Assembly (NCBI RefSeq): GCF_021568315.1
Contig: NZ_JAKGSI010000002.1
Span: 248,001 to 312,000, forward strand
Origin: Corynebacterium uropygiale
Lineage (GTDB): Bacteria > Actinomycetota > Actinomycetes > Mycobacteriales > Mycobacteriaceae
Reading direction: 5' to 3'
DNA length: 64,000 nucleotides
This document shows, piece after piece, positions 42,891 through 45,465 of this stretch (the stretch's first letter is position 1; each line of letters starts with the position of its first letter). The notes beneath the pieces were generated by a model. That model searched no databases. It was not told the DNA's origin and saw only the letters and a list, made by a program, of their open reading frames with translations. Made by a program: the position numbers and the translations under genes.

Positions 42891-42966
42891 GCGGATGTAG
42901 CGCAGTTGGTAGCGCATCACCTTGCCAAGGTGAGGGTCGCGAGTTCGAGTCTCGTCATCCGCTCCA
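42891..42966 (+). tRNA. tRNA-Gly (anticodon GCC), copy 1
   Basis: Acceptor GCGGATG/CATCCGC, anticodon loop TTGCCAA (GCC), T-arm GCGAGTTCGAGTCTCGT, and encoded CCA (42964-42966). First gene of the tRNA operon; identical in body to copies 2 and 3. Confidence 0.96.
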
Positions 42967-42983
42967 AGCCTTCACGGGCTCCT

Positions 42984-43058
42984 GCGCGATTAGCTCAGCG
43001 GGAGAGCGCTTCCCTGACACGGAAGAGGTCACTGGTTCAATCCCAGTATCGCGCACCA
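42984..43058 (+). tRNA. tRNA-Val (anticodon GAC), copy 1
   Basis: Acceptor GCGCGAT pairs fully with ATCGCGC. The anticodon loop is CTGACAC (GAC) and CCA is encoded (43056-43058). It reads GTC/GTT codons. Confidence 0.96.
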
Positions 43059-43084
43059 GACACAGGAGTGATCCTGAGTCGTTT

Positions 43085-43157
43085 GCGGATGTAGCGCAGT
43101 TGGTAGCGCATCACCTTGCCAAGGTGAGGGTCGCGAGTTCGAGTCTCGTCATCCGCT
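43085..43157 (+). tRNA. tRNA-Gly (anticodon GCC), copy 2, no encoded CCA
   Basis: Same 73-nt body as copy 1, but the bases after the discriminator are CTG instead of CCA because the 176-bp repeat ends there. CCA must be added by the nucleotidyltransferase. Confidence 0.95.
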
Positions 43158-43188
43158 CTGGTACGCCGTACCTGAGGCGGTACGCCAC

Positions 43189-43259
43189 GGTGGAATGGCC
43201 GAGTGGTGAGGCAACGGTCTGCAAAACCGTGCACACGGGTTCGATTCCCGTTTCCACCT
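43189..43259 (+). tRNA. tRNA-Cys (anticodon GCA)
   Basis: 71-nt cloverleaf: acceptor GGTGGAA/TTCCACC, anticodon loop CTGCAAA (GCA), T-arm CGGGTTCGATTCCCG, discriminator T. CAA rather than CCA follows. It lies between the two copies of the 176-bp repeat. Confidence 0.95.
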
Positions 43260-43267
43260 CAAATCAT

Positions 43268-43342
43268 GCGCGTTTAGCTCAGCGGGAGAGCGCTTCCCTG
43301 ACACGGAAGAGGTCACTGGTTCAATCCCAGTATCGCGCACCA
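43268..43342 (+). tRNA. tRNA-Val (anticodon GAC), copy 2, acceptor mismatch
   Basis: Identical to copy 1 except for base 6 (T at 43273 instead of A), which opposes T67 and breaks one acceptor-stem pair (GCGCGTT against ATCGCGC). CCA is encoded (43340-43342). It may still work, but less efficiently. Confidence 0.93.
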
Positions 43343-43368
43343 GACACAGGAGTGATCCTGAGTCGTTT

Positions 43369-43444
43369 GCGGATGTAGCGCAGTTGGTAGCGCATCACCT
43401 TGCCAAGGTGAGGGTCGCGAGTTCGAGTCTCGTCATCCGCTCCA
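43369..43444 (+). tRNA. tRNA-Gly (anticodon GCC), copy 3
   Basis: Same body as copies 1 and 2, with encoded CCA (43442-43444). Last gene of the operon, followed by a strong terminator. Confidence 0.96.
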
Positions 43445-43463
43445 TATCACCCTGTTGATAGCA

Positions 43464-43498
43464 GCGGCCCCGGCATAGAGCCGGGGCCGCTTTTCTGT
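43464..43498 (+). terminator. Terminator of the tRNA operon
   Basis: GCGGCCCCGGC (43464-43474) pairs perfectly with GCCGGGGCCGC (43480-43490) with a 5-nt loop, followed by TTTTCTGT. Confidence 0.93.
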
Positions 43499-43565
43499 AT
43501 ATATAAGGAATCGCGCGGGGAAGCGAGGGCTACGCGAGGCGAGGAAGGAGGGGCGGAGATGCAAT

Positions 43566-43604
43566 TCTCCCCCGGTGCATCGTTGGCCGAGCATCCGGGG
43601 GAGA
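43566..43604. other. Long hairpin in the 3' region of the first small-peptide gene
   Basis: TCTCCCCCGG (43566-43575) pairs perfectly with CCGGGGGAGA (43595-43604) around a 19-nt loop. It lies 55 bp beyond the stop of the minus-strand peptide gene and lacks a T-run. Apart from this and the next hairpin, 43499-43658 holds nothing recognised. Confidence 0.6.
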
Positions 43605-43618
43605 AAGAAGGGAGAGAG

Positions 43619-43646
43619 CTCGAGAGGGGCCGGGGCTCCTCTCGAG
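43619..43646 (-). terminator. Hairpin just after the first small-peptide gene
   Basis: CTCGAGAGG (43619-43627) pairs perfectly with CCTCTCGAG (43638-43646), 12 bp past the minus-strand stop at 43659. No T-run; it may be a terminator or a 3' stabilising structure. Confidence 0.5.
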
Positions 43647-43658
43647 GATCAGGGGCTA

Positions 43659-43865
43659 TTAGTTAGCGCCCTCGGTAGCAGCCTCAGCGCCATCGGCAGC
43701 GTTAGCGGCGGAGGAGCCGTCCTCGCTGCTCAGAGCGGAGCTGAGATCAACGCCGCTGGTGATGGTCTTGAAAGCCTGGACAGCAACGCCCACCCAGTTC
43801 TGGGACGCGATGTTGGTCGCGAGGTGGAGGACAGAGGAGCCGAAGTTGAGGAAAAGATCGCCCAT
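43659..43865 (-). CDS. Small amphipathic acidic peptide 1, PSM-beta-like (or PorA/H-like)
   Basis: 68 residues without signal peptide or cysteine. Residues 1-45 alternate hydrophobic and polar (MGDLFLNFGSSVLHLATNI, then ASQNWVGVAVQAFKTITSGV), as in an amphipathic helix. The tail is Ser/Ala/Glu-rich (DGSSAANAADGAEAATEGAN). The QNW and I-x-S-G-V spacing resembles staphylococcal beta-type phenol-soluble modulins (recalled, not searched). The alternative is a corynebacterial PorA/PorH-type leaderless porin, also short, acidic and helical. AAAGGA lies about 10 nt before the ATG. The tail resembles that of the next gene, so the two are probably paralogues. Confidence 0.75.
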   Translation of the reverse strand: MGDLFLNFGSSVLHLATNIASQNWVGVAVQAFKTITSGVDLSSALSSEDGSSAANAADGAEAATEGAN

Positions 43866-43936
43866 TGTGTCAGATTCCTTTACGTGTCGATGAATGGCAC
43901 AGAGTGCGCTACGTCATATCGGTGGCGCAAGTATAT

Positions 43937-43979
43937 ATGAAAAGCGGCCGATGACCACCAACCAAGATCATCGGCCGCT
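43937..43979 (-). terminator. Terminator of the second small-peptide gene
   Basis: AGCGGCCGATGA (43943-43954) pairs perfectly with TCATCGGCCGCT (43968-43979), a 12-bp stem, followed on the minus strand by TTTTC. Between it and the stop at 44033 lies a second inverted repeat built of CCATATGG units (43990-44016). Confidence 0.9.
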
Positions 43980-44032
43980 GTTCTCACCACCCATATGGGG
44001 GACAGAACCCATATGGTGTGACGAGGCTTGTC

Positions 44033-44224
44033 TTAGGCGGCAGCCTCAGCGCCAGCCTCAGCAGCGTCGCCCTGGGAGGAGCCGTCGATGACGGAGGAGC
44101 CGAGCTCGACGGTGTTGGAGACGGTGCTGACGATGCTCTTGGCGAACTCGCCCCACTCGCCGGAGATGGCGTTGGTGACGATGCCGACGATGGACTCACC
44201 GAGAGCCTGCAGAGATTCAGCCAT
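44033..44224 (-). CDS. Small amphipathic acidic peptide 2, beta-class phenol-soluble-modulin-like
   Basis: 63 residues without signal peptide. Residues 10-46 (ESIVGIVTNAISGEWGEFAK, then SIVSTVSNTVELGSSVI) align without gaps to staphylococcal PSM-beta1 as I recall it, sharing about 12 of 33 positions, including VT-AI and SIVS-V-N-V-L. The tail is Gly/Ala/Glu-rich, like peptide 1. GGAAGGAAA precedes the ATG, with a promoter at 44321-44349 and a strong terminator after the gene. PSM-betas are secreted surfactant peptides; a mycolate-modified porin of the PorA/PorH type is the main alternative. No matching exporter gene is in the window. Confidence 0.8.
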   Translation of the reverse strand: MAESLQALGESIVGIVTNAISGEWGEFAKSIVSTVSNTVELGSSVIDGSSQGDAAEAGAEAAA

Positions 44225-44320
44225 GATAGGTTTCCTTCCGTAACGTTTAGGTCTACGAGAACTTTCCGAAGAGGTTCGGATAAACCCTCGCGCAGCGGAG
44301 GTTTCCGCTGACAAGAACCA

Positions 44321-44349
44321 ATAGTAGGGACGCGCAACCCCTCAAACAA
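44321..44349 (-). promoter_or_regulatory. Promoter of the second small-peptide gene
   Basis: On the minus strand -35 TTGTTT (44344-44349) and -10 TACTAT (44321-44326) have a 17-bp spacer, predicting a leader of about 90 nt. Confidence 0.55.
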
Positions 44350-44358
44350 TGGTCTTTC

Positions 44359-44381
44359 GGCCCAACTTTTGGGCCTTTTTT
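44359..44381 (+). terminator. Orphan plus-strand intrinsic terminator
   Basis: GGCCCAA (44359-44365) pairs with TTGGGCC (44369-44375) around CTT, followed by six Ts (44376-44381). No plus-strand gene precedes it after the tRNA operon, which already ended at 43498. It faces against the two small-peptide genes. Confidence 0.8.
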
Positions 44382-44426
44382 GGTAACTTTCGACCACCCC
44401 GGAGTAGACGAAAGGAGATAAAAAGC

Positions 44427-44454
44427 TTGACTTTTATCACTTGAGTCACATTAT
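44427..44454 (+). promoter_or_regulatory. Candidate promoter upstream of the copper cluster
   Basis: -35 TTGACT (44427-44432) and -10 CATTAT (44449-44454) with a 16-bp spacer. If used for copC, the leader would be about 420 nt. Confidence 0.45.
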
Positions 44455-44569
44455 TCCCATGAATAACAGGATCGCGTGCGGGTGAACGCGACTGTCAAGA
44501 GGCGCGACCCTTGCGGAGTATCTCTTCCGTGCTCGCCCCTCGTCTTGACTGCGCAGAAAAGGCTCTGAC

Positions 44570-44884
44570 ATGCGCAAACGCCGTCGTTCGATGGCAAGAA
44601 ATAGACGATGCGCGTGGATCATGCCGAGATCTGCCCTCCCGCGCTGCGTACCGGAAGAGCATCTGGCGCGTCGGAGGCCCCCTGAGGAGAGGGCAGTGGA
44701 CGTCGAGAAGGGCGGAGGCTCACGGGTAGGGTTGAGAGGAGTTGGGCGGCGAGTGCCGTCGGCCATGCCGACGCCGCCCCGTCACTATGCCTCGTGGCGG
44801 GAACTTTTGAGCACCCCTGTCCGACAAGTTCACCAGTACCGTTTCGCGGTACGAGGAGCAGAGAGAAAGGACGTGGCCGCCTGA
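44570..44884 (+). CDS. Possible leader ORF translationally coupled to copC
   Basis: 104 codons starting at an ATG with AAAAGG 7 nt upstream and ending in a TGA that overlaps the copC ATG (TGATG). The predicted protein is Arg-rich with no recognised domain and atypical composition (MRKRRRSMARNRR at its start), so it may not be a conserved protein. The overlap and the poorly placed copC ribosome site (about 12 nt) favour coupling, as in a leader or a real small gene. Apart from the elements listed, nothing else was recognised in the 659-bp gap 44225-44883. Confidence 0.3.
   Translation: MRKRRRSMARNRRCAWIMPRSALPRCVPEEHLARRRPPEERAVDVEKGGGSRVGLRGVGRRVPSAMPTPPRHYASWRELLSTPVRQVHQYRFAVRGAERKDVAA
44744..44852 (+). 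other. Two hairpins in the leader before copC
   Basis: GGGCGGC plus GTCGGC (44744-44750, 44758-44763) pair with GCCGAC plus GCCGCCC (44767-44779), a 13-bp stem with a 7-nt bulge. GTACCG/CGGTAC (44836-44841, 44847-44852) forms a second hairpin ending 31 nt before the copC ATG. They may be a control element of the copper operon, or chance in GC-rich DNA. Confidence 0.4.
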
Positions 44885-45465
44885 TGGCGTCTTCCGTTAT
44901 TCGCCCATCGAGGTGCGTCGCTGCGGCAGCAGCACTGGTGGTGGGTGGCGCCGTTGCGGGGATCCCGGCGGCGCAGGCCCACGACGTTGTCATCGACGCG
45001 AATCCGCCGGTCGACGGCGTGGTGGAGGAGTTTCCTCGCGAGATTACCTTGACGTTCTCCGGGGAGCCGCAGCCCGCGTTCAACATGTTTGCCATCAGCA
45101 ATACGGATACCGGAGAGATCCTGTACTCCGGGGAGCCGAAGCTCGATGGCCGTTATCTCTCCATCGCCACCCCCGATGATGTCCACCCGGGTCCCGGCAC
45201 GTACACCATCGGCTTCCAGATCACGTCCTCCGACGGGCACGCCACCCGGGGGAGTACGGATTTTCGAGTGGGTGACGGCGGCGCGTCCGCTGCTGCGGGC
45301 TCCTCGTCCGCCAACCAGCCCGGTACGACCAGTGGTAGCGAAGAGCAGGACACAGGCTCCCCGCTTGCGTGGATTGCTGGCGCCATCGGCGTCCTCCTCG
45401 TGGTGGGCATTATTGCCGTGGTTATCCTGCGCCGTCGAGCATTGGGCAACGAACAGGACTCATAA
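44884..45465 (+). CDS. copC: CopC-domain copper-binding protein with C-terminal anchor
   Basis: Exported protein of 193 residues. A signal peptide ends at about AAQA-HDV (residue 32/33), which would leave His33 as the first mature residue, the CopC copper ligand. The CopC fold covers 33-130 (ANPPVDGVVEEFPREITLTFSGE, TSSDGHATRGSTDFRV). After a Ser/Gly/Thr linker a helix near 165-185 (WIAGAIGVLLVVGIIAVVILRRR) anchors it. It binds copper outside the membrane. No CopD is fused or adjacent. It is 33 bp upstream of the PCuAC gene in an apparent three-gene operon. Confidence 0.9.
   Translation: MASSVIRPSRCVAAAAALVVGGAVAGIPAAQAHDVVIDANPPVDGVVEEFPREITLTFSGEPQPAFNMFAISNTDTGEILYSGEPKLDGRYLSIATPDDVHPGPGTYTIGFQITSSDGHATRGSTDFRVGDGGASAAAGSSSANQPGTTSGSEEQDTGSPLAWIAGAIGVLLVVGIIAVVILRRRALGNEQDS

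Follow-up and report, generated by a model that had tools for sequence, protein, structure and literature searches.

A pair of leaderless acidic peptides in Corynebacterium uropygiale with similarity to PSM-beta and a possible place in the mycomembrane

The window analysed here is a stretch of 64,000 nucleotides from the genome of Corynebacterium uropygiale, and it carries two small neighbouring genes, A and B, between a tRNA cluster and a gene for CopC (Table 1). The other neighbours recognised with Pfam are, besides CopC, genes for a PCu(A)C copper chaperone and a Dyp-type peroxidase. Both peptides were judged by eye to be leaderless. They are the sole open reading frames of 55–80 aa in the window that pass a filter for acidic short peptides; set post hoc, it excluded Cys and Pro, allowed a single Arg or His at most, and required a ribosome site and a charge no higher than −5.

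Table 1. Features of the A/B locus, in positions of the window.
Feature	Position	Strand	Basis
Peptide A gene	44033..44224	minus	ATG frame, 63 aa, net charge −8, leaderless
Peptide B gene	43659..43865	minus	ATG frame, 68 aa, net charge −6, leaderless, acidic paralogue of A (by alignment)
Ribosome-binding site of A (GGAAGG)	44234..44239	minus	purine-rich
Ribosome-binding site of B (AAAGGA)	43876..43881	minus	purine-rich
First hairpin of the A–B gap	43983..44025	minus	folding analysis
Second hairpin of the A–B gap, then TTTT (terminator-like after A)	43943..43979	minus	folding and C. poyangense alignment
Promoter-like match upstream of B (TGGTCA, 16 nt, TATACT)	43930..43957	minus	consensus match only
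Conserved block upstream of A	44361..44400	minus	common to three other genomes

A and B are real genes. Both have counterparts in C. poyangense, in the same order and again adjoining a tRNA cluster, with identities of 71% for A and 58% for B. Third codon positions hold most of the changes in both genes; dN is 0.18 and dS 0.54 over the first 52 codons of A, and dS is saturated over the first 44 codons of B. The original prediction of two minus-strand genes for acidic peptides is therefore upheld by the ATG frames, the ribosome sites (one for each gene, as proposed) and the conservation in C. poyangense, and the Ser/Ala/Glu-rich tail said to be common to the two peptides is present in their alignment. 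Codon adaptation relative to groEL2 is 0.71 for A, compared with a maximum of 0.69 over 59 mechanically picked window frames of at least 120 aa. The value for B (0.52) is unremarkable, and a peptide pair encoded between groEL2 and ppk2 of the same genome, described below, has values of 0.61 and 0.66.

B is followed immediately downstream by six tRNA genes (window 42891-43444) encoded on the other strand, three of them Gly(gcc) and two Val(gac). Their order is Gly, Val, Gly, Cys, Val, Gly, versus Cys, Gly, Val, Gly in C. poyangense. The gap between A and B contains two hairpins, with z of −5.11 here and −4.15 in C. poyangense. When the second stem is compared with that of C. poyangense, at least two pairs are changed on both sides and the loop is unchanged. 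An independent promoter and a strong terminator had been predicted for "peptide 2", a name that is ambiguous, as the Pfam match belongs to the 63-aa peptide and the promoter-like match precedes the 68-aa gene. The promoter part stands as a match before the 68-aa gene, but the strong hairpin with its T run follows the 63-aa gene, and only a 9-bp stem without a T run, noted by eye, is found 3′ of the 68-aa gene.

The conserved block upstream of A contains GGCCNAAAAGT and accompanies A genes across different neighbourhoods. No tRNA was found within the fetched stretch of two of the three other carriers (G049 and G058), so the A gene lies at another site there. The pattern would fit a single regulator or RNA element that travels with the gene. 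Other candidate elements were rejected. GGCCNAAAA, considered as a regulon sign common with porH, precedes 3 of 10 A-type genes, has one copy close to the groEL2-ppk2 pair of this genome, and precedes none of the 27 porH genes of other genomes. The loop TCTTGGTTGGTGG, considered as a widespread element, was matched 33 times, in 26 of 141 genomes, and a reversed control pattern 19 times, a small excess. An Rfam scan of positions 43400-44900 returned eight weak matches, none at its gathering score. A scan for sigma-D promoters gave no sense-strand match before A or B or in any other region examined. It is indecisive for A and B, as the motif also missed the sense strand of the positive controls, porH and protX of C. 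glutamicum, and its one match is antisense, before C. glutamicum porH.

Peptide A matches the Pfam family PSMbeta (PF05480) with 42.2 bits (E 6.9e-11, cut-off 25), and the alignment covers residues 7-46 of A and positions 3-42 of the 43 in the profile. B has no Pfam match, PF05480 included. It aligns gap-free to A across the first 44 residues, and a profile comparison of the two gives a probability of 96 and an E of 4e-9; judged by sequence, B is a paralogue of A. The predicted assignment to the PSM-beta family is thus supported directly for A and, for B, by way of its paralogue. In the reverse direction, an A-type profile of 13 sequences (12 from genomes and 1 from a protein collection) finds the solved PSM-beta2 (5kgz) across equal spans of 37 residues with E 0.0014. 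A phage baseplate protein, which is unrelated, ranks just above it at 0.0011, and a profile of A and B together finds 5kgz at E 0.05. The forward score of A could be partly circular, depending on the content of the Pfam seed. Homology to PSM-beta is likely, and the case for it rests mainly on one profile, with a borderline reverse search; convergence of short amphipathic helices is a possible source of the match.

The match itself is not new, since a database label exists for C. poyangense, in which the relative P0003 is already named "beta-class phenol-soluble modulin" at NCBI. A search of the accessible literature found no study of PSM-beta-like peptides in Corynebacterium. The present analysis adds the paralogue B, the tail with its Ser-Ser pairs, a locus apart from porHA and the narrow distribution. 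Both peptides are also longer than the PSM-beta domain alone, with a tail outside it; A has 63 and B 68 aa, compared with 44 aa in the solved PSM-beta2, and two A-type rows from other genomes have 47 and 49 aa.

PF05480 is above its cut-off in 12 of 242 Corynebacterium genomes, and the A-type profile finds 14. Among 376 Actinomycetota genomes drawn from 231 genera, only that of the window matched. Further named carriers of the A family are C. kalidii and an unclassified Corynebacterium bin from faeces. Clear B genes are found in 2 of the 242 genomes, that of the window and C. poyangense, and so in only 2 of the 14 A-family genomes. In ten other genomes the B matches are weak, and some of them are A-type genes or different LGSS peptides; P0005 is a further B-type protein. 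Single A-type or LGSS peptides adjoin rpiB at loci L006 and L039 (Pfam) and, by eye, at L038 (opposite-strand frames). A shortened A-like frame (L041:1471-1581), on a 58-kb contig of genome G066, lies beside a Mur-ligase-type frame that by eye is CapB/PgsB-like.

A and B might be true secreted PSM-beta-like surfactants that aid spreading or the structure of biofilms and are perhaps weakly lytic. Such peptides would account for the PF05480 score of A, for the 12 Corynebacterium genomes above the cut-off, for the modulin name of the C. poyangense relative and for the equal 37-residue spans shared with PSM-beta2, and strongly biased codons, as in A, would also suit a peptide that is released in quantity. 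They would fit less well with the rank of the reverse match beneath a phage protein, or with peptides of 63-68 aa that extend past a 43-position domain and carry net charges of −8 and −6; and the draw of actinobacterial genomes, with no other match, argues against a wider actinobacterial modulin family. The secreted cytolytic or surfactant role put forward in the original prediction finds nothing in the sequence in its favour. An envelope protein agrees better with the tail and with how strongly biased the codons of A are, as it does with hosts that produce mycolate and with the leaderless mycomembrane peptides that the genus is known to have. We therefore consider secretion possible but doubtful.

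Porins of the PorA/PorH type had been named as the rival to the modulin assignment, with clear best hits to those families as the result that would overturn it. Neither A nor B matched the NCBIfam PorA/PorH models (NF033938, NF033937, NF033925) at E up to 10, whereas C. glutamicum PorH (NF033938) and PorA (NF033925) were each above cut-off. The PorH query sequence has a 100% match to a genome sequence. Alignments for profile comparison were built from 30 fetched loci and hold 27 rows for PorH (three loci omitted, two without a printed frame and L081 by choice) and 25 for PorA (five omitted, two without a printed frame and L081, L085 and L086 by choice). In these comparisons A had no similarity to PorH or PorA, and B none to PorH. 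At E 0.01 the PorH profile matches 124 and the PorA profile 109 of the 242 Corynebacterium genomes. C. poyangense has both kinds of peptide; its PorH and PorA matches lie between groEL2 and ppk2 and its A and B genes elsewhere, and in the genome of the window, too, A and B are not at groEL2-ppk2. Orthology with PorH/PorA was accordingly rejected on family models, profile comparison and locus.

In the genome of the window, the groEL2-ppk2 interval (L102:7072-7603, contig C5) is filled by peptides of 78 and 84 aa. These have no NCBIfam or Pfam match, and the genome has no PorH or PorA profile match. The pair is either a set of porins that has diverged strongly or a substitute for them, and the name porHA applies to it by position only. 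According to the accessible portion of PMC3792995, the C. jeikeium locus was likewise assigned by position before its channel was shown. Because another small-peptide pair occupies the groEL2-ppk2 position, A and B are an extra pair. The view that they are an ordinary PorH/PorA, a diverged copy of the two-component porin, draws on the adjacency of two leaderless, acidic, helical peptides, as in porH-porA; it is already largely refuted by the model searches, the profile comparisons and the locus, by the coexistence of both kinds in C. poyangense and by the other pair at the porin locus here, and we hold it to be improbable. Two further candidates were set aside. Mutual exclusion with canonical PorH was suggested by a single-sequence search, which found no PorH in the 14 A-family genomes, yet the PorH profile matches 5 of the 14. 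The A6 family, tried as a homologue, has profile scores that are high with B and moderate with A, but the common stretches are Ser/Ala/Gly-rich.

An amphipathic N-terminal helix had been predicted for both peptides. The amphipathicity is present but modest, as a best 18-residue helical moment as high as the observed one arises in 1.0% of the shuffles of A and in 3.3% of those of B; the N-terminal placement fails in A, where the best amphipathic stretch is the second helix. AlphaFold models, both of low confidence, place helices at residues 2-20, 24-47 and 55-62 of A (pLDDT 60.3) and at 3-22, 24-48 and 53-66 of B (pLDDT 58.5), so that in each predicted structure a short linker joins a helical hairpin to a helix in the tail. 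All 16 distinct A- and B-type sequences contain a Trp, which falls where the predicted hairpin turns; in seven of them the sequence reads W-x-G. This Trp recalls the helix-turn-helix of WXG100 proteins, and A and B could on that account be miniature type VII substrates. WXG100 proteins are of ∼100 aa, compared with 63-68 aa here, no WXG100 match was obtained at E up to 10, and A and B have no Tyr for a YxxxD/E signal. Moreover, in the accessible portion of a published study, deletion of type VII genes did not lower the surface exposure of C. glutamicum PorH, and we give this reading almost no credence. A leaderless two-peptide bacteriocin is quite improbable as well: no immunity or transporter gene was recognised among the neighbours examined (the tRNAs, CopC, PCu(A)C and Dyp-type peroxidase) and 12 of 14 A-family genomes have no clear B, even though the peptides are short, leaderless, paired and amphipathic and entries of the solved PSM-beta2 chain are also named antibacterial protein.

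Ser-Ser pairs occur at residues 43-44 and 49-50 of A and at 10-11, 42-43, 46-47 and 51-52 of B, and at least one such pair is present in 13 of 13 A-type and 3 of 3 B-type rows. The A-type rows total 32 pairs against a shuffle mean of 15.4 and the B-type rows 14 against 4.5, and neither total was reached in 300 shuffles, the rows in each set being related and non-independent. PorH (pairs in 23 of 27 rows, 47 vs 14.4 expected) and PorA (21 of 25 rows, 28 vs 10.6 expected) show the excess too, again over related rows, and the four rows of the LGSS family A7 do not (12 vs 15.0 expected). A leaderless peptide family with members of 59 and 63 aa and repeated LGSS motifs was observed at five loci (L046 and L049-L052); both members are present in four, and L049 has only the 63-aa one, with a TetR-type regulator near it. 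In the low-confidence models the linker holds Ser49/50 of A and Ser51/52 of B, and Ser43/44 of A lie inside the second modelled helix.

Genes for the mycolate synthase Pks13 are present in 14 of 14 A-family genomes, with 67% identity for that of the window's genome. By gene content, the host of A and B would make mycolic acids. To our knowledge few corynebacteria lack Pks13, and its presence in all 14 is for that reason weak support. PorA, PorH and ProtX, of 45, 57 and 38 aa, are described in the accessible portions of four papers as leaderless, helical mycomembrane peptides, mycoloylated by MytC/Cmt1 at Ser15, Ser56 and Ser37, respectively (PMC5310785, PMC11927696, PMC12632848, PMC9671496). 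The sequence contexts of these mapped acceptors are LSGS in PorA, FSS in PorH and ASS in ProtX. Published site mapping in C. glutamicum places acceptor serines amid Ser, Gly and Ala in flexible stretches, and in a PorA model, likewise, the serine that accepts the mycolate belongs to a linker that joins two helices. According to the literature, a strict mycoloylation motif does not exist.

With about even confidence, we propose that A and B are small proteins of the mycomembrane, built on a PSM-beta-type helical hairpin and with a tail that is likely O-mycoloylated. The physical class of the peptides, the Ser-Ser pairs, the codon bias of A, Pks13, the conserved upstream block and the gap hairpins point towards the envelope, and of the readings considered an envelope role with mycolate anchoring suits them best. 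The peptides would be exported without a signal peptide by the route of PorA, PorH and ProtX. An enzyme of the MytC/Cmt1 type would transfer mycolate to serines such as Ser49/50 of A and Ser51/52 of B, and the amphipathic hairpin would insert into the mycolic-acid outer membrane, where A and B may serve as a pore or as surface proteins beside the groEL2-ppk2 peptide pair. That such envelope proteins form a pore is the most uncertain part of this scheme. A two-component A+B pore like the PorA:PorH complex modelled in PMC12632848 is possible, and it cannot be general because of the 12 A-family genomes without a clear B. More tentatively, the PSM-beta fold may have been put to a further use, in peptides that a lipid anchors in the outer membrane. 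A group of corynebacterial mycomembrane proteins and the PSM-betas of staphylococci would then form one family, in which a Ser-Ser tail gained in the corynebacterial branch made a mycoloylated envelope protein or pore out of a free amphipathic peptide.

The label "phenol-soluble modulin", which one relative received from automatic annotation, suggests a toxin, and is misleading if A and B are mycomembrane proteins. In that case the set of small envelope peptides of corynebacteria exceeds PorA, PorH and ProtX. If the PSM-beta homology is true, modulins that are released and peptides that are anchored in a membrane are linked by evolution.

Compared with known systems, A resembles PSM-beta (PF05480; PSM-beta2, PDB 5kgz) in being leaderless, amphipathic, helical and over the profile cut-off. 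Unlike PSM-beta, A and B have an acidic Ser/Ala tail past the domain at 63-68 aa and belong to a mycolate-producing actinobacterium, and B is missed by the PF05480 model. With PorH/PorA they share small size, the leaderless, acidic and helical character, the adjacent gene pair and Ser-Ser motifs; they differ in model match, profile similarity and locus, and C. poyangense has both kinds. ProtX (cg2875, 38 aa, mycoloylated at Ser37), likened here by description and not by alignment, is likewise leaderless and amphipathic, is encoded outside the porHA locus and ends in a Ser-Ser acceptor; it is shorter than A and B, a single gene, and has no Pfam match. PorACj of C. jeikeium (40 aa), also likened by description and not by sequence, sits between groEL2 and ppk2, unlike A and B, and is, in the accessible portion of its published account, a homo-oligomeric example of a single leaderless peptide able to form a cell-wall channel.
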